This document shows, in pieces, positions 8,624 through 28,042 of a stretch of DNA of 64,000 nt. The stretch's first letter is position 1. Every line of letters begins with the position of its first letter. The DNA comes from Sulfitobacter guttiformis. GTDB lineage: Bacteria > Pseudomonadota > Alphaproteobacteria > Rhodobacterales > Rhodobacteraceae. The stretch is from NCBI RefSeq assembly GCF_003610455.1, contig NZ_RAQK01000001.1, positions 558,001 through 622,000 of the forward strand. Direction: 5' to 3'. The translations under genes and the position numbers were made by a program. The notes beneath the pieces were generated by a model. The model searched no databases, was not told the origin of the DNA, and saw nothing but the letters and a program-made list of their open reading frames with translations.

Positions 8624-9514
8624 ATGGCAAAAGCAAGGGCGGCATATACGCTGCGGTATCGGCTGGAATACTATCTTATCCGGTCCATGCTTTTTGTGAT
8701 GGGTATACTTCCGTTTCGGCAGCGAAGCGCCCTCATGGCGTGGGGGATGTCGCGGGTGGTTGCGCCTCTCGTGGGGTATCAGAAGCGAGTGCGCGACAAT
8801 CTGGATCGCGTTTGGCCGGAAATGGACCCTGCCAAGCGGGATGCGCTCACCCTCGAAATCAACAGGAACGTGGGGCGCACCATCTGCGAGCTTTTTTCGC
8901 CCCGCGATCTGGTTTCGATGGCGCAAAAAACAGCGATGACGGGTGCAGGCTTGGCTGCACTGGAAGCAGCGCAGGCGGCTAATCGACCAGCAATCGTCAT
9001 CTCCGGCCATTTCGGTAATTACGACATCGCCCGCGCCCGAATGATCGCTGAAGGCTTTAAGGTTGGCGCCTTATATCGGCATATGAACAACCCGATTTTT
9101 CACGACTTTTACCTCAAAAACATCTCCACCATCGGCACACCCCTGTTCGAGCGTGGTCGTCCGGGCCTTGGCCAGATGGTCAAACATCTCAAAGGGGGCG
9201 GCACACTGGCCGCCTTGATCGACGTACGTGCAAATAATGGAATCCCGCTGCCCTTTTGCGGACACATGGCATTAACGGCTACTTCAATGGCTGAACTGGC
9301 GCTGCGCTATGACGCGGTGCTGATCCCCTTCTATGGCACGCGGCTCCCGAACGGAGAAGGGTTTGCCATCGATCTGGAAGACCCCATCCCGCACTCGGAC
9401 CCTGAAACGATGACGCAAGCGCTCAACCTCTCTCTCGAAGCGCGTGTGTTGCAAAATCCTGAGCAGTGGTTCTGGATACACAACCGGTGGAAAGGCGCTG
9501 ATCAGGAGCAGTAG
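8624..9514 (+). CDS. Lysophospholipid/lipid A acyltransferase (LpxL/HtrB family)
   Basis: 296-aa inner-membrane acyltransferase that would add a secondary acyl chain to the lipid A precursor, normally after Kdo addition. An N-terminal hydrophobic anchor at about residues 15-32 is followed by the catalytic HX4D motif, H129-F-G-N-Y-D134, in VISGHFGNYD. Later family blocks include ALYRHMNNP and the ending NPEQWFWIHNRWKG. The neighbouring LPS core cluster with WaaA supports a lipid A role. LpxL and LpxM types cannot be separated from sequence alone, so no symbol is given. Confidence 0.88.
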   Translation: MAKARAAYTLRYRLEYYLIRSMLFVMGILPFRQRSALMAWGMSRVVAPLVGYQKRVRDNLDRVWPEMDPAKRDALTLEINRNVGRTICELFSPRDLVSMAQKTAMTGAGLAALEAAQAANRPAIVISGHFGNYDIARARMIAEGFKVGALYRHMNNPIFHDFYLKNISTIGTPLFERGRPGLGQMVKHLKGGGTLAALIDVRANNGIPLPFCGHMALTATSMAELALRYDAVLIPFYGTRLPNGEGFAIDLEDPIPHSDPETMTQALNLSLEARVLQNPEQWFWIHNRWKGADQEQ

Positions 9515-17021: not shown

Positions 17022-17416
17022 AACCTGAAGCACTGATTTCGAGAATAAGATCGCCCAAAAATACGATAGTCTGTTCTGACAGTACTGCCGTTGAGGCAAA
17101 CTCGAGGATCCAAAGGCCGGCGTTCCGGCGTGTGGAGTGCGACATTACAGCGGATTAGCGTAGAATAGAAATTTCCATCTGGCGATGAATGGCTAATCGC
17201 AGACCCTGCAATCGGCAGCAGCCTATTTCCGATGTCTACCCCCTCCGCGCAGTGAAACACGATTGGGCCGCGCGCTCTTGGCCACTGTCACAGACCGGTC
17301 GACGCGCCCGCTCAGTCGTTGAAACAAAGCACCCTCCCGAAGAGGGAGTATATTTTCTGGACAGTTGTACAAATTTTCTGCTTAGCTGGTTGAAACTGGA
17401 TCTTGGGAGGGATGCA
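17022..17416. other. Non-coding stretch upstream of the alcohol dehydrogenase
   Basis: About 395 bp. An open frame continues upstream of the dehydrogenase into this region but its N-terminal translation looks random. Small hairpins are visible (GCCGG-CGTT-CCGGC at 17116-17129, and CTCCC-GAAGA-GGGAG near 17334-17348), neither followed by a T-run. It probably contains the promoter of the alcohol/aldehyde dehydrogenase operon. Confidence 0.4.
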
Positions 17417-19036
17417 TTGGAGGAATTCGACTTTGTAATTGTCGGCGGCGGCTCTGCGGGATCAACACTCGCGTCACGGCTGAGCGAGAACCCCGATTTC
17501 CGTGTCTGTCTGATTGAAGCTGGCGGCAAAGGCACCAACATTTTGTTGCGCGCCCCCGCAGGGGCAGTCACCGTCATCCCCGGTCATGGTAAAATGTTCA
17601 ACTGGGCGTTCAACACATTACCACAAGCAGGCCTGAAAGGGCGCCGCGGCTACCAGCCGAGAGGCCGCGCCCTTGGTGGATCTTCCGCAATCAATGCAAT
17701 GCTCTATGTCCGTGGGCACAAATCGGATTACGACGATTGGGCGAACGAAGGATGTGATGGCTGGTCGTGGGAAGATTGCCTGCCATTTTTCAAGAAATCC
17801 GAAAACAACGAGTTGGGCAGTGACGGCATCCATGGCAGTGCGGGTCCGCTACAGGTTGCCAACCAGAAACAGCCGCGCCCAATTACCCATGCCTTTATTG
17901 AGGCGGCAAGCAAACTTCAGCACCGTCAGCGCAGCGACTTTAACGGCGGCGACAATGAGGGCGTTGGCCTCTATCAGGTCACGCAATTCCACAAAGGTGA
18001 CAAAAACGGCGAGCGATGCTCTGCCGCGGCGGCATATCTACATCCTGTGATGGACCGCACCAACCTGACCGTCCTCACAAAAGCCCGCGCTACAAAAATC
18101 CTGTTCGAAGGCAAACGCGCCGTGGGAGTGACCTACCGGCAAGGAAGGTCGAACCGGCAGGTGCGTGCCACGCGTGAGGTTATTCTGTCGGGCGGGGCCT
18201 TCCAGTCTCCCCAGTTGCTACAGCTGTCAGGTGTGGGCCGCGCAGAAGACATCACACCCCACGGCATCGACATGGTGCACGCCCTTGGCGGTGTAGGACA
18301 GAACCTTCAGGACCATCTCGACTTCACCCTCGCTTATAAAACCGCAGACACCGACAACTTCGGCATCGGGCTTGCGGGCACCGCGCGACTGCTTGCCGCG
18401 ATGGTAAAATGGTGGCGCAAGGGCACTGGCTTGATTGCCACCCCCTTTGCCGAAGGTGCAGCGTTTCTCAAGACAAGCCCAGCGCTTGACCGTCCGGATG
18501 TGCAACTGCATTTTGTCATCGCGATCGTAGACGACCATGCGCGCCGCCTGCATCTTGGCTACGGGTACAGCTGTCACGTCTGCGCGCTGCGCCCCTACAG
18601 CCGCGGCACTGTGGCATTGCAAAGTGCTGATCCGCTTGCCGATCCAGCCATCGACCCCCGATATCTTTCGGATCCCCGTGACCTCGAGACCCTGATCGCA
18701 GGTGCAAAGATGACCCGCGACATCATGAAGGCCGACCCTTTGGCAAAATATGAAAAGTGCGAATTGTTCGGTGTCGTGGACAACATGACTGACGGCGAAT
18801 GGGAGGCCCACATCAGAGCGCGGGCAGATACGATCTATCACCCAGTCGGCACCTGCAAGATGGGCACCGACGATATGGCTGTGGTGGACCCACAGCTCAA
18901 GGTTCACGGAATGCAAGGCCTGCGTGTCGTAGATGCCTCGGTCATGCCGACGCTTATCGGCGGCAACACCAACGCCCCTACGATCATGATCGCAGAGAAA
19001 TGCGCGGATATGATCAAAGCTGAATACGCGATATAA
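17417..19036 (+). CDS. GMC family FAD-dependent alcohol dehydrogenase
   Basis: About 539 aa, glucose-methanol-choline oxidoreductase, similar in plan to choline dehydrogenase BetA and AlkJ-type alcohol dehydrogenases. FAD-binding FVIVGGGSAGSTLASRL is at residues 6-22, the family signature GRALGGSSAINAMLYVRG at about 83-100, and the active-site His475 (YHPVGTCKMG) and Asn519 (GGNTNAPTIM) are present. The start is TTG at 17417, 5 nt after GGGAGGG, placing the dinucleotide fold at the N terminus. The next gene is an aldehyde dehydrogenase, so the pair would take an alcohol to an acid. The substrate is undetermined, although the TetR neighbour looks BetI-like. Confidence 0.85.
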   Translation: MEEFDFVIVGGGSAGSTLASRLSENPDFRVCLIEAGGKGTNILLRAPAGAVTVIPGHGKMFNWAFNTLPQAGLKGRRGYQPRGRALGGSSAINAMLYVRGHKSDYDDWANEGCDGWSWEDCLPFFKKSENNELGSDGIHGSAGPLQVANQKQPRPITHAFIEAASKLQHRQRSDFNGGDNEGVGLYQVTQFHKGDKNGERCSAAAAYLHPVMDRTNLTVLTKARATKILFEGKRAVGVTYRQGRSNRQVRATREVILSGGAFQSPQLLQLSGVGRAEDITPHGIDMVHALGGVGQNLQDHLDFTLAYKTADTDNFGIGLAGTARLLAAMVKWWRKGTGLIATPFAEGAAFLKTSPALDRPDVQLHFVIAIVDDHARRLHLGYGYSCHVCALRPYSRGTVALQSADPLADPAIDPRYLSDPRDLETLIAGAKMTRDIMKADPLAKYEKCELFGVVDNMTDGEWEAHIRARADTIYHPVGTCKMGTDDMAVVDPQLKVHGMQGLRVVDASVMPTLIGGNTNAPTIMIAEKCADMIKAEYAI

Positions 19037-19062
19037 CTTTAACAATTACAGGAGTTTACGAT

Positions 19063-20784
19063 ATGGACGGAACAATGAATGCCCCCCACCTTGAAGAATA
19101 TGACGCGGCATTACACGCGCTGGACAAGGCCAAGGACAGCTGGGCGCGCACATCTGTCGCCAACCGCATCGCACTGCTGCAACAGGTAAAAGAAAACCTG
19201 ATGGGTGTCGCAGAAGAGTGGGTCGCCATCGCCACCCGCAAAAAGCAAATTCCCGAAGGTTCCCCCCTCTCGGGTGAAGAATGGACCTCTGGCCCTTATG
19301 CGGTGATGTCGGCCTGCAACGGCTTGATGCACACCCTGAGCCAGATGGAGGGAAAATCGTTTCTTAAACATCTGCCGACCCGAACATTGACCACCGGCCA
19401 GACCGCGGTGAAGGTCATGCCCCATTCGATCTGGGATCACTTGTTGTTGTCAGGGGTAAAAGCCGAAGTATGGATGCAGCACGGCATCACACCGGCAAAT
19501 TTGCCCCAACATACTGCTGTGGCATATGACATCCCGCCAAGCGACCGGCAGGGCAAAGTCGCCCTGATCCTCGGCGCAGGGAACATTGCCTCCATCGCCC
19601 CGCTTGATGTATTTCAAAAACTGTTTTTGGAAAATCAGGTCGTGATCCTCAAGATGAACCCAGTGAACGATTACCTGACCGAGTTCCTGACCATTGCCTT
19701 AAAGCCGCTGATAGACGTCGATGCCCTGCGCATTGTCAAAGGCGACGGCGCGGCGGGCGCATACCTCACCAATCATGACATTATCGACGAACTTCACATC
19801 ACAGGGGCGGGCGCTACGCATGATGCCATCGTGTGGGGCACCGGACCCGAGGGCGCAGCGAACCGCGCCGCAAACACACCAAAGAACACCAAGCATTTCA
19901 CCTCGGAGCTGGGTGCCGTCTGCCCAACGATTGTAGTACCCGGCCCGTGGTCTGCCGCAGATCTGCAATTTCAGGCAGAACATATCGCAACGCAGAAGCT
20001 GCACAATTCCGGTTTCAACTGTGTTGCCTGTCAGGTCCTCATCATGCCACGCGGCTGGGACAAAGCGGCGGTATTGCTAAAAAACATCGAGAAGGTCGCG
20101 CTTAAATCCACCCGTGGCGCTTATTACCCCGGTGCGAACGATCGGATGGACAGTTTTGCCGAAAAGGCCAAAAATCCGAAATTAGTCAAGCGGACCGCAT
20201 CCCCCGCGCTGCTGATTAATGATGTGGATGACGCAGACTGGTTCCGCTCCAACGAAGTCTTTGCACCTGCGATGTCGACACATGAAATGGATGCGCCCGA
20301 TGCGGCGACCTATCTAGTCAACGCTGTCCGGTACGCAAACGAACAGCTTTACGGCACACTTGGGGCGAACATACTTATCCATCCCAAGACAATCAGGGAA
20401 ATCGGTAAAAAGCGGTTTGAGGAGATCATCGCCGAGCTGCACTATGGCACAATCGCTGTCAACGCATGGACAGGTTTGGCCTTTTTGGCAACATCCTGCC
20501 CTTGGGGCGCCTTCCCCGGTCACACACCGCAGGATGTTCAATCCGGGATCGGGACGGTGCATAACACATTCATGCTTGAAAATACGCAGCGCGTCGTAAT
20601 CGAGGCGCCTTGGGCTCCCTTCCCCCGTAATGTAGTGTCAGGTCAGTTGACCTTGCTGCCGCGCCCGCCTTGGTTTGTATCCAATAAAAAGCAGGACAAA
20701 ATCGGGCGTTTACTGACATCCTTCCAGTATAAGCCAAGCTGGTTCAAAATTCCTCGTATTTTCCTTAACGCCCTGCTCGGGTGA
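19063..20784 (+). CDS. Divergent long aldehyde dehydrogenase
   Basis: 573-aa member of the aldehyde dehydrogenase superfamily, longer than the usual ~490-500 aa. The nucleotide-binding part includes VALILGAGNIASIAP. The catalytic base is E282 in FTSELGAVCP and the likely nucleophile is C320 in NSGFNCVACQ, with a second Cys at 323. The C terminus adds a basic tail after VVSGQLTLLPRPPWF. It starts 26 bp after the GMC alcohol dehydrogenase in the same direction, so it is probably the next step of alcohol oxidation to a carboxylate. Cofactor choice and substrate are not clear from sequence. Confidence 0.85.
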   Translation: MDGTMNAPHLEEYDAALHALDKAKDSWARTSVANRIALLQQVKENLMGVAEEWVAIATRKKQIPEGSPLSGEEWTSGPYAVMSACNGLMHTLSQMEGKSFLKHLPTRTLTTGQTAVKVMPHSIWDHLLLSGVKAEVWMQHGITPANLPQHTAVAYDIPPSDRQGKVALILGAGNIASIAPLDVFQKLFLENQVVILKMNPVNDYLTEFLTIALKPLIDVDALRIVKGDGAAGAYLTNHDIIDELHITGAGATHDAIVWGTGPEGAANRAANTPKNTKHFTSELGAVCPTIVVPGPWSAADLQFQAEHIATQKLHNSGFNCVACQVLIMPRGWDKAAVLLKNIEKVALKSTRGAYYPGANDRMDSFAEKAKNPKLVKRTASPALLINDVDDADWFRSNEVFAPAMSTHEMDAPDAATYLVNAVRYANEQLYGTLGANILIHPKTIREIGKKRFEEIIAELHYGTIAVNAWTGLAFLATSCPWGAFPGHTPQDVQSGIGTVHNTFMLENTQRVVIEAPWAPFPRNVVSGQLTLLPRPPWFVSNKKQDKIGRLLTSFQYKPSWFKIPRIFLNALLG

Positions 20785-20791
20785 CATCAAA

Positions 20792-20824
20792 TCGGGCCGT
20801 ATGAAGAATTTGCATCCGGCCCGA
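20792..20824 (+). terminator. Stem-loop after the aldehyde dehydrogenase gene
   Basis: A perfect 8-bp GC-rich inverted repeat (TCGGGCCG / CGGCCCGA) with a 17-nt loop begins 8 nt after the stop codon. There is no T-run after it, so it may be a weak or Rho-assisted terminator separating the dehydrogenases from the TetR gene. Confidence 0.45.
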
Positions 20825-20862
20825 CCTTATCCTGACATATCATACTCGAGATCCTGACAGAT

Positions 20863-21465
20863 ATGCCTACCGCTCCAGATTCCAGCGCAGTGCGAAAATC
20901 GGCAAAGCGCGACAGTAAAAAGCGCCAGATCGCAGACAGTGCGATCACGGCGCTACGCACCCTTGGCTATGCCAATACCAGCCTGCGCGACATCGCTGAA
21001 TATAGCGGTATGTCGTTGGGAATTCTGCATTACTATTTTGAGGATCGCTCGGATCTAATTATCTATTGTGTGCGCCTGTACAAACAGGAGTTTGTTACCG
21101 GTATCCTTGAGACGTTGAGCGGCGCAGTGGGGCGCGCAGAAGTCATCAACATCTTGTCCGGTGCTCTTGCGCGCTCTATTGCCAAAGACTCAGACACGCA
21201 CCGACTCTGGTACGATATCCGTAATCAGGCACTCTTTGATCCAGTTTTCAGGCCTGTAACGGCAGAAATCGAAGCGATGCTGGTCAGGATCGTGGCATCC
21301 GCATTCGCCAAATCAGGCCATGCCGTACCACCGATGATCGACCTTCAACTCGCCCTCCTTGATGGAGTGTTCCGTCACCTGATGCAAAAGCAACTCACGG
21401 AACAAAGCCGGACCGCAGCCGCGCTCAAGATCACGTTTGCTTCGGTGCTTGAACAAATTCTGTGA
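20863..21465 (+). CDS. TetR/AcrR family regulator, BetI-like
   Basis: 200-aa TetR-type repressor. The HTH lies at about residues 25-70, with TSLRDIAEYSGMSLGILHYYFEDRSDLI as a textbook TetR recognition region. The remaining helices form a ligand domain resembling the BetI-type C-terminal domain. It follows the GMC/ALDH pair and is the natural candidate for its control, the inducer perhaps being the alcohol or aldehyde. BetI itself controls choline oxidation, but the aldehyde dehydrogenase here does not look like BetB, so the choline link is weak. Confidence 0.85.
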   Translation: MPTAPDSSAVRKSAKRDSKKRQIADSAITALRTLGYANTSLRDIAEYSGMSLGILHYYFEDRSDLIIYCVRLYKQEFVTGILETLSGAVGRAEVINILSGALARSIAKDSDTHRLWYDIRNQALFDPVFRPVTAEIEAMLVRIVASAFAKSGHAVPPMIDLQLALLDGVFRHLMQKQLTEQSRTAAALKITFASVLEQIL

Positions 21466-21897: not shown

Positions 21898-23766
21898 CTA
21901 ACGCCTGCTTTCGCTTGCGGAGAGATTCCAATCGTCTTCGGACACGGACAGCGCCTTGATCTTCGAATACACCGTAGTCGGTGCCAGCTCCAGCAATCGC
22001 GCAGCGCCTTGCGGGCCGGATACCTTTCCTTGTGACCGGACAAGGCACCGGATCAGATTTTCGCGCTCGATGCGCCGGATATCCGCGCTGGATAAAATCC
22101 GGTCACTGGCATGAACAGTCGCTCCATGACCGGTCTGAAATTCGAACTGTAGCTTGCCTCCCTGCGCCAAAATGGCCGCACGCTCGATCACGTTCTCAAG
22201 TTCGCGCACATTTCCGGGCCAGTCATAGGCCAGTAGCGTTTCAATGTTAGCCTTTGAAAGCCGCGCTGCTGGCAATCTTAGCCGGCGCGACACACGGTCA
22301 AGAAAATGCTTGGCCAGCAGCGGGATGTCATCGGGTCGGTCGCGCAATGCGTCACACTGGATCGAGAATACGTTTAGCTCGAAAAAGAGGTCCTGCCGGA
22401 ACCTGCCTGCCTGCACTTCCGCCGCAAGGTTACGGGTCGTGGTCGAAATGATCGTCATGTCCACCCGGATGTCGGTTGTATCGCCCAGACGGCAAAACAT
22501 TCCTTCTTTGATCACTGTCATCAGCTTTGCCTGAAACGACTTGGGCAAAGCAGACACTTCATCCAGACACAGTGTGCCATTGTTGGCTAACGCCAGCTTG
22601 CCCACGGTGTCACGTACCGCCCCCCGGAACGCACCGCGTCTGTAGCCGAAGACCTCCGCCTCAAGTGCCTGCGCGGTGATGTCAGAGCAATTCACATGGA
22701 CCAGTGGCCGCTTTCGACCACTGCTGGCCTCGTGCAACGCGCTAACGGCCAAACTTTTACCCGTGCCCGCAGCGCCCGTTATCAACACGTTTGTCTTAGT
22801 ATCTGCCACCAGATCAATCTGCACATTAAGGTTCCGAACGGCCGCCGATTGACCCACAATGCCCGCATGTGAACGTACGTTACGAATTTCGGTGAGCAGG
22901 TAGTCGTTCTCCTGCTCGAGTTGCACGCGCAGCGTTTCCACTTCGGCAAGCGCATGACGCAGCTTCTTCTCACTCTCCTTACGCTCAGTCACGTCACGGA
23001 AAATCACTACCGCTCCCGCCAGCACACCGTGATCGTAAATCGGGGTCGAAACGTATTCGACCAAAATCGGCTTGCCGTCCTTGCGCCAGAACGCGTCATC
23101 TTCGACGCGCACAGTTTTGTCACGGCGGAATGAATCATAGATCGGGCATTCATGGGCGGGGAATTGCGCCCCGTCCAGATGATGGTGATGGATGATCGAA
23201 TGAAGCTCGCGCCCGATCAGATCCTCCGCATTCCAGCCCAACATTTCCTGCGCGGCACGGTTTACAAATGTGGCCTTGCCCTCTGCATTAATGCCATAGA
23301 TCCCCTCCCCCGCGGCCTCGAGAATGAGCTCGTTCTGGGCCTCCACCTCGCGGAAGAACCCATAGATGTTTTGCCACTGCATCAAACCGGCCCGGTGGTG
23401 CGCTTCCTGCTCGGCGAGATACTCCCGCCGGTTCTGGGCATTGAGATCCAGAAAACTGAGAACTATTTCTGATCCGCCGGAATGGATACCATAGACTTGC
23501 ACCCGGAGCGAAGTGCCATCGGCGCGGACAAAATCCAATGCTGTCTCGATATAGCGGCCAAAGTACATGACCGCCTCCAGATATACAGCCATCGCACCAG
23601 AGGAAGACGTCAGAAACCTGCTCATTGAAGCTTCTTCGAGACTGCACCCGAACAATTGTGCTGCGGCGGGATTATATGTCAGGACCGCACCGTTGCGCGC
23701 ATCCAAGACAAGAGCGGGCAGCGGATTGTGCAAAAGCACGTGAGGCAAAACAGAATCTTTTTCCAT
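21898..23766 (-). CDS. PAS-PAS-AAA+ NtrC-type transcriptional activator, atypical
   Basis: 622-aa enhancer-binding-type regulator divergent from the cyanate genes. Domains: PAS at about 10-110, PAS at about 140-262, a short coiled coil, AAA+ at about 303-535, and a Fis-type HTH at about 588-606 (ARLLELAPTTVYSKIKAL). Walker A is GAAGTGKS (331-338) instead of the usual GExGTGKE. Walker B is LCLDE (399-403). The sigma-54 contact loop GAFTGA reads GAFRGA (378-383). The region that normally reads FRxDLxxRL reads FRQDLFFEL, keeping R457 but placing E463 where a second arginine is expected. Sensing by PAS and control of the divergent operon are inferred. Whether it still works with sigma-54 is doubtful. 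Confidence 0.88.
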   Translation of the reverse strand: MEKDSVLPHVLLHNPLPALVLDARNGAVLTYNPAAAQLFGCSLEEASMSRFLTSSSGAMAVYLEAVMYFGRYIETALDFVRADGTSLRVQVYGIHSGGSEIVLSFLDLNAQNRREYLAEQEAHHRAGLMQWQNIYGFFREVEAQNELILEAAGEGIYGINAEGKATFVNRAAQEMLGWNAEDLIGRELHSIIHHHHLDGAQFPAHECPIYDSFRRDKTVRVEDDAFWRKDGKPILVEYVSTPIYDHGVLAGAVVIFRDVTERKESEKKLRHALAEVETLRVQLEQENDYLLTEIRNVRSHAGIVGQSAAVRNLNVQIDLVADTKTNVLITGAAGTGKSLAVSALHEASSGRKRPLVHVNCSDITAQALEAEVFGYRRGAFRGAVRDTVGKLALANNGTLCLDEVSALPKSFQAKLMTVIKEGMFCRLGDTTDIRVDMTIISTTTRNLAAEVQAGRFRQDLFFELNVFSIQCDALRDRPDDIPLLAKHFLDRVSRRLRLPAARLSKANIETLLAYDWPGNVRELENVIERAAILAQGGKLQFEFQTGHGATVHASDRILSSADIRRIERENLIRCLVRSQGKVSGPQGAARLLELAPTTVYSKIKALSVSEDDWNLSASESRR

Positions 23767-23804
23767 GCCTTAATGTGGCCCTATCGAAGCGCGCCAAGAC
23801 AATT

Positions 23805-23833
23805 ACGATATTTCGTATTTCACGAAATATCGT
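23805..23833. promoter_or_regulatory. Perfect 12-bp inverted repeat, candidate operator
   Basis: ACGATATTTCGT and ACGAAATATCGT form a perfect 12-bp inverted repeat with a 5-bp spacer (ATTTC). Each half is itself partly palindromic (ACGA-N4-TCGT). It lies 39-67 bp upstream of the regulator start and about 125-154 bp upstream of the binding-protein start, in the divergent promoter region. The placement suits an activator/autoregulation site for the PAS/AAA+ protein. There is no U-run for a terminator role. Confidence 0.65.
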
Positions 23834-23958
23834 ACAAAGTGCCATTTATTTAATCATTTTTATCAATGGATTGTATTTTTTGGACGTATGAAAAACCCGT
23901 CTCGTACAGAGGTGGACGCCGTGCCATCATAATTCCAAATCAGGTCATGGGGGATAAT

Positions 23959-25332
23959 ATGACAGTTAAGAGCCTTGGAAATCCGTTCTCGAAAGACACC
24001 GATCTGCGCCACGGGCAAAGCTGCTCGTGTGACACATGCCAGAGTACTCCAGCCACGGGCACGCGGCATATGTCCAGCGACGATATGCTGGAACAGGCCG
24101 TAGAGAGCGCCATCGTACGCTCCGTTTTTGGCCACAGCGACATCGGTCGCCGGTCGTTTATGGGGATGGTCGGCGGCAGCACGGCCGCAGCGGCACTTGC
24201 CTCCGTCTTTCCGTTGAGCGAGGCAAAGGCGGCGATCCTTGATAATCTCGGCACGCCAGAAAAGACCGATCTCAACATCGGCTTCGTCCCGATCACCTGC
24301 GCCACGCCGATCATCATGGCAGAGCCGTTGGGCTTTTATGCCCGCTACGGTCTGAACGCAAAAGTCATCAAAACCGCCGGTTGGGCGGTGGCGCGCGACA
24401 AATCCCTATCGGGTGAATATGATGCCAGCCATATGCTGACGCCTATGCCGCTGGCGATGACACTCGGCGCAGGCTCGATTGCAGAGCCGTACATCATGCC
24501 TGCTGTCGAAAATATCAACGGTCAGGCCATTGTTCTGGCCAACCAGCATATGGACAAGCGCGATCCGAAACAGTGGAAGGGCTTCACCTTCGGCGTGCCG
24601 TTCGAGTACTCCATGCACAACTTTTTGCTGCGCTATTACGTGGCAGAGTTCGGCCTCGACCCCGATGTCGATATCCAGATTCGCGTAGTTCCGCCGCCGG
24701 AAATGGTTGCAAACCTGCGCGCAGGAAACCTCGACGGCTACCTGTCGCCCGATCCGTTCAACCAGCGTGCCGTGTTCGAGGGCATCGGCTTTATCCACAT
24801 GCTGACCAAGGAAATCTGGGAGGGCCACCCCTGCTGTGCCTTCGCCGCGCCCCTCTCCTTTGCCACTGAGCTACCGAATACTTATGGCGCGCTCCTCAAG
24901 TCGATCATCGACGCCACGCAATATGCATCCAATCCCGACAATCGTAGCGAAATTTCGACCGCAATTGCACCTACCAACTACCTGAACCAGCCCGTCACTG
25001 TGATCGAGCAGGTTCTGACCGGTACCTACGCCGACGGTCTGGGCGAGGTAAAGCGCGTGCCCGACCGCATCGATTTCGACCCCTTCCCGTGGCAGTCAAT
25101 GGGCGTCTGGATCCTCACCCAGATGAAGCGGTGGGGCTACATCGAAGGCGATGTGAACTATAAGCAGGTGGCCGAGCAAGTCTATCTGGCAGCCGATGCA
25201 CGCAAGATCATGACCGATCTGGGATATGATGCGCCTGCGGATAATTACAAATCCCACATGATCATGGGCAAGTCTTTCGATCCGGCCCAGCCCGAAGCCT
25301 ACGTCAACAGCTTTGCGATCAAGGCGAAATGA
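23959..25332 (+). CDS. Cyanate-type ABC transporter substrate-binding protein (CmpA/NrtA family), Tat-exported
   Basis: 457-aa binding protein of the CmpA/NrtA/CynA family. A twin-arginine signal, GRRSFMGMVGGSTAAAALASV (RR at 64-65), is preceded by an unusually long 63-residue N-terminal tail containing C22, C24 and C27 in SCSCDTC. The mature protein has NIGFVPITCATPIIMAEPLGFY and LSPDPFNQRAVFEG, typical of nitrate/bicarbonate/cyanate binding proteins. The ATG at 23959 follows GGGGGAT. It begins an operon with permease, ATPase, DUF1348 and cynS, so cyanate as ligand is inferred from the cyanase rather than from binding-site residues. Confidence 0.85.
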   Translation: MTVKSLGNPFSKDTDLRHGQSCSCDTCQSTPATGTRHMSSDDMLEQAVESAIVRSVFGHSDIGRRSFMGMVGGSTAAAALASVFPLSEAKAAILDNLGTPEKTDLNIGFVPITCATPIIMAEPLGFYARYGLNAKVIKTAGWAVARDKSLSGEYDASHMLTPMPLAMTLGAGSIAEPYIMPAVENINGQAIVLANQHMDKRDPKQWKGFTFGVPFEYSMHNFLLRYYVAEFGLDPDVDIQIRVVPPPEMVANLRAGNLDGYLSPDPFNQRAVFEGIGFIHMLTKEIWEGHPCCAFAAPLSFATELPNTYGALLKSIIDATQYASNPDNRSEISTAIAPTNYLNQPVTVIEQVLTGTYADGLGEVKRVPDRIDFDPFPWQSMGVWILTQMKRWGYIEGDVNYKQVAEQVYLAADARKIMTDLGYDAPADNYKSHMIMGKSFDPAQPEAYVNSFAIKAK

Positions 25333-26165
25333 TGGGAACCCTGTCAGAGAACAAAAAAGCGGCGCTCTTGTCGGTGCTTCTGTTGCTGGTCGGTCTTTTT
25401 GTGTGGGAAATCTCTATTCCCGCCCAAAAAGCAGCCGAAGCACTGACCGAATACGAGCGTTTGACAGGGGTGGGCGCGCCAAAAGCCGGCGTCCCCCCGC
25501 CCAGTCAAGTGATTGTAAAAGCTTGGGAGCAACTGTCGAACCCGTTCTATGACGCAGGCCCGAATGACAAGGGCATCGGCATACAGATCGGATATTCCAT
25601 ATACCGCGTGCTGGTAGGCTATTTCTTTGCCGCACTCATCGCGATCCCGCTGGGTTTTTTGATCGGCATGTCCCGGGTGGCCTACAAGGCGCTCAATCCG
25701 TTTATTCAGGTATTGCGTCCGATCTCGCCGCTGGCCTGGATGCCCCTTGCACTGTTCATAATTCAAGACAGCGAGGCGTCAGCCATTTTCGTCATCTTCA
25801 TATGTTCGATCTGGCCCATGCTCATCAACACAGCCTTCGGCGTGGCAGGTGTTCGCGAGGACTGGGTGAATGTTGCACGGACACATGAACTGGGCCCGCT
25901 CAGAACGGCCTTTACCGTAATCCTGCCCGCCGCCGCCCCCACAATTGTGACGGGTATGCGTATTTCCATCGGTATTGCTTGGCTGGTGATCGTTGCCGCC
26001 GAAATGCTCGTGGGCGGGACCGGCATCGGGTATTACGTCTGGAACGAGTGGAACAACCTCGATCTGACCTCCGTCATCTTTTCAATCCTCATGATCGGTG
26101 TAGTCGGCATGTTGTTGGACGCAGCCCTTGGCCTGCTCCAGCGCCGCGTCGCATACGTAGAATAA
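25329..26165 (+). CDS. Cyanate-type ABC transporter permease (NrtB/CynB-like)
   Basis: 278-aa inner-membrane permease with about six membrane segments and the BPD_transp_1 fold of the nitrate/taurine/cyanate group. The EAA-type loop falls in VARTHELGPLRTAFTVILP. Nearby, RISIGIAWLVIVAAEML is typical of the NrtB/SsuC group. Its ATG overlaps the stop of the binding-protein gene (ATGA), and the ATPase follows 9 bp later. It would carry the substrate bound by the Tat-exported protein into the cytoplasm. Cyanate specificity is inferred from cynS downstream. Confidence 0.88.
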   Translation: MMGTLSENKKAALLSVLLLLVGLFVWEISIPAQKAAEALTEYERLTGVGAPKAGVPPPSQVIVKAWEQLSNPFYDAGPNDKGIGIQIGYSIYRVLVGYFFAALIAIPLGFLIGMSRVAYKALNPFIQVLRPISPLAWMPLALFIIQDSEASAIFVIFICSIWPMLINTAFGVAGVREDWVNVARTHELGPLRTAFTVILPAAAPTIVTGMRISIGIAWLVIVAAEMLVGGTGIGYYVWNEWNNLDLTSVIFSILMIGVVGMLLDAALGLLQRRVAYVE

Positions 26166-26174
26166 GGTATTCCA

Positions 26175-27071
26175 ATGGCATCCTCCTTCCTGAGCATCGA
26201 ACAGCTCACTCAGCGCTATCCCGACGGCAAGGGCGGCGAGTTCACGGTCTTCGAAAACGCTAGCTTCGGCATCGAAAAAGGTGAATTCGTCTGCATCCTT
26301 GGACATTCGGGCTGCGGAAAATCCACTATAATGAACATTCTTGCCGGATTGGCAGAGCCTACCGCAGGCGTAATCAAAATGGATGGTCAGGCAATCTCCG
26401 GCCCCAGCCTCGATCGCGGTGTGGTGTTCCAGAACTACTCCCTGCTTCCGTGGCTCACCACGCTCAAGAATGTGACCTTCGGGGTGGCAGCACGCTTTCC
26501 CAAATGGACAAAGCAGCAGGTGACCGACCATTCCATTGCATTTCTGGAAAAAGTAGGTCTGAGCGGGGATGCAATCCACCGCAAACCCAGTCAGCTATCG
26601 GGAGGCATGCGCCAACGGGTATCGATTGCCCGCGCCTTCGCAAACGAGCCCAAGCTCTTACTCCTCGACGAGCCGTTCGGCGCTCTTGATGCACTCACTC
26701 GTGGCACCATTCAGGACGAGCTGATAAAAGTCTGGAGCGGGACGGACCAGACGGTATTCATGATCACCCATGATATCGACGAGGCGATCCTGCTCGCCGA
26801 CCGCATCCTGTTGATGACAAACGGTCCTATGGCACGCGTCGCCGAAAGCGTGGAAATCACAATTCCCAGACCGCGCAACCGTACCCAGATCGTTCAGCAT
26901 CCGAACTATTACGCGATCCGCAACCATCTGGTCCAGTTTTTGGGCGAGCGATCGGTCAAACTTGCTGCGCAGCCGGCTGACGGGATGATTCATCGGCCCG
27001 AAACCGTGCGCATCGATAAGACAGAAGAACGCGCAGCCGACAAAGCTCCCCTGCGCGCGATCACGTCATGA
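26175..27071 (+). CDS. Cyanate-type ABC transporter ATP-binding protein (NrtD/CynD-like)
   Basis: 298-aa ATPase of the nitrate/taurine/cyanate importer group. It has Walker [10 protein letters not shown] near residue 48, Q-loop [13 protein letters not shown], signature [15 protein letters not shown], Walker [13 protein letters not shown], and the switch His in MITHDIDEA. The last ~40 residues, after [11 protein letters not shown], form a polar tail of unknown role. It overlaps the next gene by ATGA, so it is translated together with the DUF1348 protein. It energises import through the adjacent permease. Confidence 0.92.
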
Positions 27072-27547
27072 CAACAGAGCTACCGCGCCCACCCTTGCCG
27101 CCCTTCACACGGCAGGACGCGGTGCAAAAAGTCAGAATGGCCGAGAACGCATGGAACAGCAGGGACGTCGCCGCAGTTTCGCGGGCCTATACCTCCGATA
27201 CGCGATGGCGCAACCGCGCCGAGTTTTTGGACGGACGTGCGCAGGTCGAGGCATTTTTGATCCGCAAATGGGCCGCCGAGGCCGATTACCGCCTGATCAA
27301 GGAGCTCTGGGCACATAGTGACACCGCCATAGCTGTGCGCTTTTGCTATGAGTACAGCGATGCACAGGGCAAGTGGTTTCGCGCCCACGGTAACGAGAAC
27401 TGGCTGTTTGACGAAAATGGCTACATGGCCCGGCGCCATGCCTCGATCAACGATGTACATATAACCGAAGCTGAGCGGTTATTTCACTGGCCTGCCCCCG
27501 GACCCCGCCCAGAGGACCACAAGGGCCTGAGCGCTTTAGGCCTTTAA
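27068..27547 (+). CDS. DUF1348 (NTF2-like) protein in the cyanate operon
   Basis: 159-aa cytoplasmic protein matching the DUF1348/NTF2-like fold. Recognisable stretches are [51 protein letters not shown] and the ending [17 protein letters not shown]. There is no signal peptide. Family function is not established. It is translationally coupled to the ATPase gene by an ATGA overlap and lies 42 bp before cynS, so it is part of the cyanate operon and may help handle cyanate, its product, or a related nitrogen compound. A catalytic role is a guess, because no conserved catalytic residues can be named with confidence. Confidence 0.82.
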
Positions 27548-27589
27548 TCTTTCCAAACACCCTTAATTATTAACAAAGGACCACGACCC

Positions 27590-28042
27590 ATGAGCACCAT
27601 GATGACAAAAGAAGATGTCACCGCAATGATCCTGTCTGCAAAGAAAACGGCAGGCCTCACATGGGAGGAAATCGCCGCGAAAATTGACATGTCCCCGGTA
27701 TGGACCCATTCGGCCGCCATGGGCATGAATGCTTTCCCCCCGCAAAAGGCCGCATTGATGGTCAAGGTAATGGGCCTTCCCCAAGAGGCCGAAAGTCTGC
27801 TGTCTGAAAGCCCCACAAAAATCTGGGAGCAGGCCGTGCCGACCGATCCATGCATCTACCGCTTTTACGAGATCGTGGGCGTCTATGGCCCGACACTCAA
27901 AGCCCTAATTCAGGAGAAATTCGGCGATGGTATCATGTCAGCCATCGACTTCGAGATGAGTGTGGCAAGGGTGGAAAACCCCAAGGGCGACCGCGTCAAG
28001 ATCGAGATGTCTGGTAAATATCTGGGATATAATAGTTGGTAA
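27590..28042 (+). CDS. cynS: Cyanate hydratase (cyanase)
   Basis: 150-aa cyanase, EC 4.2.1.104, which uses bicarbonate to convert cyanate to carbamate, which then gives ammonia and CO2. The catalytic triad R91, E94 and S117 is intact, in YRFYEIVGVYG and DGIMSAIDF, with the same spacing as E. coli Arg96, Glu99 and Ser122. An N-terminal helical HTH-like domain comes first, then the C-terminal dimer/decamer domain ending GKYLGYNSW. The ribosome site AAAGGA lies 9 nt before the ATG. It is last in the transporter operon, which strongly supports cyanate as imported substrate. Confidence 0.97.
   Translation: MSTMMTKEDVTAMILSAKKTAGLTWEEIAAKIDMSPVWTHSAAMGMNAFPPQKAALMVKVMGLPQEAESLLSESPTKIWEQAVPTDPCIYRFYEIVGVYGPTLKALIQEKFGDGIMSAIDFEMSVARVENPKGDRVKIEMSGKYLGYNSW

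Follow-up and report, generated by a model that had tools for sequence, protein, structure and literature searches.

How is a cyanate operon controlled when the regulator beside it belongs, by sequence, to the sigma-54 activator family and no gene for sigma-54 (rpoN) is found in the genome? The question is raised by positions 21898..28042 of a 64,000-nt stretch (the whole stretch analysed, hereafter the window) of Sulfitobacter guttiformis contig NZ_RAQK01000001.1 (GCF_003610455.1), where a CynF-type regulator gene on the minus strand diverges from five plus-strand genes, cynA, cynB, cynD, a DUF1348 gene and cynS; all six open reading frames (ORFs) were confirmed at these positions. The reading favoured here, at a probability of about 0.7, is that the cyn operon is under this divergent regulator, which would no longer work with sigma-54 and likely aids the housekeeping holoenzyme. 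It draws on gene content, linkage, the failure to find rpoN, the loss of motifs and promoter, operator conservation and purifying selection, all read from sequence.

The features of the regulator and of the spacer between it and cynA are as follows:

21898..23766, minus strand: CynF-type regulator, PAS-PAS-AAA+-helix-turn-helix (HTH), 622 aa (ORF, Pfam, protein search, predicted model, linkage)
22981..23340, minus strand: PAS2 domain, residues 143-262 (Pfam, alignment)
22618..22635, minus strand: L1 loop GAFRGA, residues 378-383, which replaces GAFTGA (sequence, alignment)
22375..22401, minus strand: arginine-finger motif FRQDLFFEL, residues 456-464 (alignment)
21952..22035, minus strand: C-terminal HTH region, residues 578-605 (helices in the predicted model)
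23804..23817, no strand: operator dyad 1, TACGATATTTCGTA (repeat scan, cross-locus alignment)
23821..23834, no strand: operator dyad 2, CACGAAATATCGTA, its centre 17 bp from that of dyad 1 (repeat scan, alignment)
23845..23866, plus strand: A+T-rich stretch that the close clade conserves, between +17 and +38 relative to dyad 2; a candidate for a promoter or for the site of an accessory protein (alignment)

The regulator and its sigma-54 motifs

The regulator is matched by Sigma54_activat (PF00158) at residues 303-470, with 178.8 bits against a cut-off of 20.2, by an AAA lid, and by a PAS domain at 145-259. The first PAS is unseen by Pfam, and comes from an AlphaFold2 model (mean predicted local distance difference test score, pLDDT, 81.5; predicted template modelling score, pTM, 0.42) in which residues ~14-107 have a PAS-like order of strands and helices; the C-terminal region gave no Pfam HTH match. 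A structure search with the whole model returned AAA+ activator structures only among the best 50 matches listed, and is therefore uninformative on the PAS domains. The sequence-only reading had described a divergent PAS-PAS-AAA+ regulator and called it atypical, and both descriptions hold: no rpoN was found, GAFTGA and the second arginine finger are lost, and the -24/-12 promoter is missing. In the finger motif, the first finger, Arg457, is kept, and the position of the second is occupied by Glu463. Solved structures of ZraR, FlrC and NifA have Arg in this column, and by motif and spacing we take it to match R168 of PspF. In NtrC1 the finger R299 (PspF R168) bonds the γ-phosphate of ATP in trans (PMC7175178).

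A genome scan with the regulator alignment gave 550 confirmed loci, the best 80 of which underlie the locus counts below and were sorted by their motifs into 62 degenerate-type and 18 sigma-54-type. The degenerate-type regulators belong almost wholly to named Rhodobacterales (60/62), the other two being from Hoeflea alexandrii (L039, Hyphomicrobiales) and an alphaproteobacterial metagenome-assembled genome (MAG) without a named order (L087). By NCBI names the sigma-54-type comprise nine Hyphomicrobiales, eight Rhodospirillales and one Geminicoccales (Bradyrhizobium 8, Thalassospira 7, Tistrella, Arenibaculum and a Rhizobiales MAG), and these cyn regulators are 46-48% identical to that of the window. 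Loci found by the regulator alone carry an adjoining cynS in 58/62 degenerate-type and 17/18 sigma-54-type cases, which argues that the linkage is not chance. At the five loci without cynS (L023, L041, L049, L073 and L084) a contig end lies near or within the cluster.

The two kinds part most cleanly at the second arginine finger, present in 18/18 sigma-54-type but 0/62 degenerate-type loci, and GAFTGA is intact in 18/18 against 4/62, having been lost in the other 58. Walker A reads GESGTGKE in all 18 sigma-54-type regulators and varies in the degenerate-type. With the window included, the latter keep the Walker lysine (63/63), the first finger (63/63) and the sensor-II Arg (61/63), and the Walker B Glu is retained in 38/63, the window among them. 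A database search with the PAS region, scored by the literal GAFTGA pattern, found it in 14 of the 120 best proteins, all ranked P0103 or lower, with 27 proteins giving no readable pattern. When a Thalassospira regulator was the query, 110/119 new proteins carried both motifs together with the sensor-II motif; seven, of which two had both motifs, lacked the sensor-II motif and are probably fragments, and of the remaining two, one (P0196) has GAFPGA with an intact finger and the other failed the search pattern only. Within the window genome, a profile search found nine PF00158 places, which we read as five activator-like proteins, two of which span two places each, and as two weak matches (24-26 bits) to other AAA proteins; none of the five, that is the cyn regulator and four others (L003-L008), has GAFTGA.

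A tree of 87 rows, built by a quick method with the trait columns masked and with several long branches, places the 63 degenerate rows in one clade with a Shimodaira-Hasegawa-like approximate likelihood ratio test (SH-aLRT) value of 99; the joins of the main groups are flagged as possible long-branch meetings. It requires one change at the second finger, three at GAFTGA and four at the Walker B Glu. The GAFTGA-bearing degenerate-type rows (L044, L047, L053 and L088) are nested inside the clade, which means that either loop loss was repeated or Thr was regained; the claim that the finger was lost before the loop rests on repeated loop loss. Nei-Gojobori ratios of nonsynonymous to synonymous substitution rates (dN/dS) ranged from 0.048 to 0.085 over the whole gene, and from 0.018 to 0.070 over the AAA+ domain, in eight of nine degenerate-type pairs, the ninth (window and L012) being saturated, and 0.037-0.062 in three sigma-54-type pairs; they are only rough, because dS exceeds 1 in two whole-gene values. 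These ratios indicate strong purifying selection on the degenerate-type regulators, AAA+ included.

rpoN, operator and promoter

In the window genome (99.99% complete) neither PF04552 nor TIGR02395 gave a match to rpoN, and both models were positive in the E. coli, B. subtilis, Caulobacter and Bacteroides controls. Across 49 genomes from 50 loci, with matches counted at E <1e-50, rpoN was present in 7/7 sigma-54-type as against 9/42 degenerate-type genomes; nine further matches, short and of 18.8-20.8 bits, were left uncounted. Planktotalea frisia (L011) is one of the relatives without a match, and L018 and L064 come from relatives that carry rpoN. A census of the window's order, an even draw of 292 genomes at least 95% complete, had rpoN in 70 (E <=1e-20) and no match in 222. 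Census genomes with the regulator beside cynS were without rpoN in 29/30 cases (the exception being G083), a deficit with a Fisher p of 0.003 in which kinship is not corrected for. A degenerate regulator can nonetheless coexist with rpoN, as in Hoeflea alexandrii, which holds rpoN and a degenerate-type regulator (GAFQGA, with Tyr at the second finger). As Hoeflea lies outside the order, transfer is likely.

The true start of cynA is probably 23959, which is conserved among relatives, rather than 23866, and with this start the spacer between regulator and cynA is 192 bp. It holds a 13-bp perfect inverted repeat, which comparison across loci resolves into a pair of 14-bp dyads TACGANNNNTCGTA with a spacing of 17 bp. 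Their centres lie 149 and 132 bp from cynA and ~45 and 62 bp from the regulator gene, upstream of each. A terminator-like match at 23834-23804 was rejected, being the dyad pair itself. Relatives were compared through 17 sigma-54-type spacers (L084 being without cynA) and 83 degenerate-type spacers, which remain of 91 once identical ones are removed. The 80 loci supply 60 of these, the census 22 and the window one, some pairs being from the same genome. Each dyad was accepted at 8 or more of 10 letters. Two dyads 17 bp apart occur in 81/83 degenerate-type spacers and a single dyad in L086 and L124, with a mean of 2.02 per spacer against 0.11 in shuffles. Of the sigma-54-type spacers, 15/17 have three dyads, at spacings of 21-22 and 17 bp, whereas L043 and L081 have two; the TACGANNNNTCGTA dyad is common to both regulator kinds. 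Allowing up to 3 mismatches, the two-dyad pattern occurs at a single place in the window genome, and a reversed control gave no match.

Sites of the -24/-12 type, scored out of 12 against the consensus, reach at least 11 in 16/17 sigma-54-type spacers, the seventeenth (L081) scoring 9. The degenerate-type give 0/83 at this level and 81/83 under 9, a score of 9 or more being reached by ~1.6% of shuffled spacers, and no such promoter was found at cynA of the window. With the dyads kept and the -24/-12 site missing, the operator has outlasted the promoter. Conserved blocks stand 3' of the operator at a fixed distance, strongest from +12 to +38 in 32 spacers of the close clade and from +33 to +56 in the 49 others, in excess of shuffles, which do not control for kinship. 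An element YAANNNNYTG lies at +31 or +32 in 25/83 degenerate-type spacers, where the shuffle maximum at any offset is 3. The blocks of the close clade partly resemble an IHF site, and those of the other group an extended -10 element; they are candidates for a new promoter or an accessory site.

A proposed mechanism and its alternatives

Elsewhere, CynF has the look of a sigma-54 activator: from dyads upstream of cynA, to which it would bind, it would use ATP hydrolysis to open the sigma-54 polymerase at a promoter of the -24/-12 type. In the degenerate lineage the second arginine finger was lost, a single time on the tree, the loop that touches sigma-54 was eroded, the -24/-12 promoter vanished, and rpoN is missing from most of the genomes searched. 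A pair of operator dyads was retained, and in the protein the first finger, the Walker lysine, sensor II, the HTH and PAS2. On its twin dyads, the regulator would most likely recruit or steady the housekeeping holoenzyme at a sigma-70-type promoter downstream. It probably binds ATP without acting as a remodelling motor, ATP being a bound ligand rather than fuel on the analogy of Rhodobacter capsulatus NtrC, and PAS2 presumably carries a cyanate or nitrogen signal; activation, the sigma-70 promoter, the role of ATP and the inducer are what we infer. A fuller history, on which the odds are about even, is a sigma-factor switch: the regulator would have moved from sigma-54 to the housekeeping polymerase with its operator kept, the finger going first and once, varied loop erosion following, the promoter and one dyad being lost or replaced, and AAA+ being kept as an ATP-sensing or oligomerising part.

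Several observations count against this account. Nine degenerate-type genomes hold rpoN, and motif loss is for that reason not simply the outcome of rpoN loss in the same genome. Four of the 62 degenerate-type regulators keep GAFTGA, though none of these has the second finger, and the window regulator retains the Walker B Glu, which is needed for hydrolysis. Two degenerate-type spacers score 10/12 (L014) and 9/12 (L116) for a -24/-12 site; a sigma-70 consensus scan of 23700-24050 gave one match, on the opposite strand, against 0.7 expected in shuffles; and the conserved blocks differ between the two degenerate-type subgroups. The selection estimates are rough, as noted, and the dyads could equally serve a repressor.

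Parts of the scheme have precedents. In Pseudomonas pseudoalcaligenes CECT5344, CynF is described as a putative sigma-54-dependent Fis-family regulator, divergent from cynABDS and essential for the operon, which cyanate induces and ammonium represses (PMC6627978). Divergent AAA+ Fis-family regulator, CynABD importer and cyanase are shared with the window in identical order, a likeness drawn from gene layout and description. The CECT5344 spacer is 268 bp and has a putative sigma-54 promoter before cynA, and its authors suggested Ntr/sigma-54 control (PMC6627978). In the window the spacer is 192 bp and has no -24/-12 site, the regulator lacks both GAFTGA and the second Arg finger, no rpoN was found, and DUF1348 is inserted. 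Cyanate lyase is also among the sigma-54-regulated genes enriched in alpha- and gamma-proteobacteria (PMC12316311).

Bacterial enhancer-binding proteins (EBPs) without a GAFTGA loop are known as well. R. capsulatus NtrC, which lacks it, has been reported to act with sigma-70 and to require that ATP be bound, not that it be hydrolysed; NtrC of Caulobacter likewise acts at sigma-70 promoters, and Rhodobacterales NtrC proteins share a loop deletion (PMC10274813). Those proteins are response regulators with the loop deleted, whereas that of the window is a PAS-bearing local regulator with the loop substituted and the Arg finger lost, and, unlike in the NtrC cases, its relatives keep the sigma-54 parts on the same operator; R. 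capsulatus NtrC is likened to it by description. TyrR, HupR, VpsR and DhaR have other sensors, targets and lineages than the window regulator. All four are relatives of sigma-54 activators without a working GAFTGA (PMC3162934). The same survey describes a putative EBP of Jannaschia sp. CCS1, an organism without sigma-54, in which the loop Thr is replaced by Glu and sigma-70 dependence was proposed (PMC3162934); the parallel with the window, also without sigma-54 found and with the loop Thr replaced, is by description only, and GAFEGA itself occurs in one of the 80 loci (L083).

CynF and sigma-54-independent relatives of EBPs were thus already known, and a sigma-70 link had been proposed for the Jannaschia protein (PMC6627978, PMC3162934); no description of a sigma-54 to sigma-70 switch of a cyanate regulator was found among the open-access literature matches listed. 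AAA+ EBPs that turn into sigma-70 regulators are known from few cases; with both states on the same operon and the same dyads in related bacteria, each protein or DNA change that belongs to the switch can be catalogued and tested separately. The scheme provides a testable model of cyanate control for an order in which most genomes drawn (222/292) have no rpoN match, and it carries a warning that 'sigma 54-interacting regulator' labels can mislead in rpoN-less genomes.

The alternative that survives best, though unlikely, is that the regulator is mainly a repressor, which blocks the cynA promoter and its own until PAS meets a cyanate or nitrogen signal. The operator does lie between the divergent genes and close to the start of the regulator gene, and some sigma-54-independent members of the TyrR kind repress (PMC3162934). 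Against this, CynF of P. pseudoalcaligenes is required for expression (PMC6627978), the dyads stand upstream of cynA in both regulator kinds, and the conserved nucleotide-binding residues (Walker lysine and first finger) would perhaps be needless in a plain repressor.

The sequence-only reading proposed a new control logic, in which cyanate use would perhaps be tied to redox or nitrogen state through PAS. In the degenerate-type regulators PAS2 is indeed conserved better than any other domain (mean column conservation 0.84, against 0.67 for AAA+, 0.72 for HTH and 0.49 for PAS1), and the PAS/AAA+ regulator is real, with conserved linkage. The novelty does not stand, however, PAS/AAA+-type cyn control being known already as CynF (PMC6627978), and nothing in the analyses, none of which was aimed at redox, points to redox; as an account of the locus this proposal is very improbable.

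That the regulator is instead decaying, idle after rpoN loss, with the operon constitutive, is barely credible: motif loss and the failure to find rpoN would suit it, but strong purifying selection that includes AAA+, reading frames intact and twin dyads present throughout the clade, and a single finger loss followed by wide diversification all speak against it. Scarcely any weight attaches to a regulator still working with a sigma-54 missed by the searches or supplied by a plasmid, for which its strong match to the activator family and the rpoN of nine degenerate-type genomes can be cited, since neither of two models detects rpoN in a genome that is 99.99% complete, and the -24/-12 score is below 9/12 in 81/83 and below 11 in 83/83 degenerate-type spacers.

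The cyn genes and their neighbourhood

Downstream of the spacer lie:

23959..25332, plus strand: cynA, substrate-binding protein of the NrtA/CmpA type, 457 aa when counted from the conserved start (Pfam, solved relatives, alignment)
25329..26165, plus strand: cynB, ABC permease, ntrB-type (Pfam, NCBIfam)
26175..27071, plus strand: cynD, ABC ATPase, ntrCD-type (Pfam, NCBIfam)
27068..27547, plus strand: DUF1348 (SnoaL-like) gene (PF07080)
27590..28042, plus strand: cynS, cyanase with catalytic residues (Pfam, TIGR00673)

The stretch reads as a complete cyanate import and breakdown operon, cynABD-DUF1348-cynS, by its sequence matches, and the cyanase, CmpA/NrtA-type importer and DUF1348 protein named by the sequence-only reading are all upheld. 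CynA has an NMT1_2 Pfam match, and the solved structures nearest to it belong to nitrate/bicarbonate transporters of the NrtA/CmpA type; the permease scores above the NCBIfam cut-off for ntrB and the ATPase above that for ntrCD. CynS, the last gene product, passes TIGR00673 and is the single PF02560 match genome-wide. Its R91, E94 and S117 stand at a constant offset of 5 from the catalytic R96/E99/S122 of E. coli CynS, and its cyanase membership lies in the family match together with the presence of all three residues, Arg, Glu and Ser.

The DUF1348 protein is the sole PF07080 match in the genome; a structure exists (2imj), labelled only as a hypothetical DUF1348 protein, and among the open-access papers listed for DUF1348 or cyanate none mentions DUF1348. 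The neighbourhood search proposed for this locus found the regulator-cynS linkage conserved (75/80 loci), but DUF1348 in only 35/62 degenerate-type loci, with 1/18 among the sigma-54-type and 24/30 census places with the regulator. In the window and 35 other loci it stands before cynS in 28/36 and after it in 8/36, and it is an accessory of the cluster.

Within the census, cynS occurs in 49/292 genomes at 51 places (that of the window and 50 others, which were fetched), 30 of which have the regulator with CynABD. At one more, L092, CynA, B and D are 70, 64 and 54% identical, but the upstream gene encodes an ANTAR-domain protein (8858-9454) and a CynF-type regulator is absent there, which suggests that this cynABDS operon is controlled by antitermination. 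At the other 20 places the best CynA match is at most 31% identical or absent. Cyanase thus has other contexts in the order, and the close CynABD form is with the regulator at 30/31 places. The two other cynS-bearing census genomes of the window's genus (L112 and L114) have regulators just 45% identical to that of the window, and the cyn cluster may on that account move between lineages.

A similar regulator, NitA of the nit1C cluster, is described as putatively sigma-54-dependent, of the Fis family and divergent; it differs from that of the window in having a nitrilase cluster as its target and in retaining the sigma-54 motifs (PMC11049912). A sigma-54-type relative beside nit1C on an Acinetobacter indicus plasmid (L145) has GAFTGA, FREDLYFRL and three related dyads, and no nit1C nitrilase above the family cut-off was found in the window genome. 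In Loktanella salsilacus (L144) the regulator lies between cyn and nit1C-type clusters; a shared operator was considered there and rejected, with no dyads upstream of nit1C at 7 or more of 10 letters.

CynA has a long N-terminal leader (window 23959-24153) with LRHGxxCxCxxC, the last Cys standing 37 residues before a twin-arginine translocation (Tat)-like RRSFMG. An alignment of 109 CynA-type sequences shows >95% conservation in the first two Cys columns and >70% in the third; the leader Cys are missing in L092 and L130. Adjoining the cyn cluster, at 17189-21465 of the window, are GMC oxidoreductase, aldehyde dehydrogenase-like and TetR genes.

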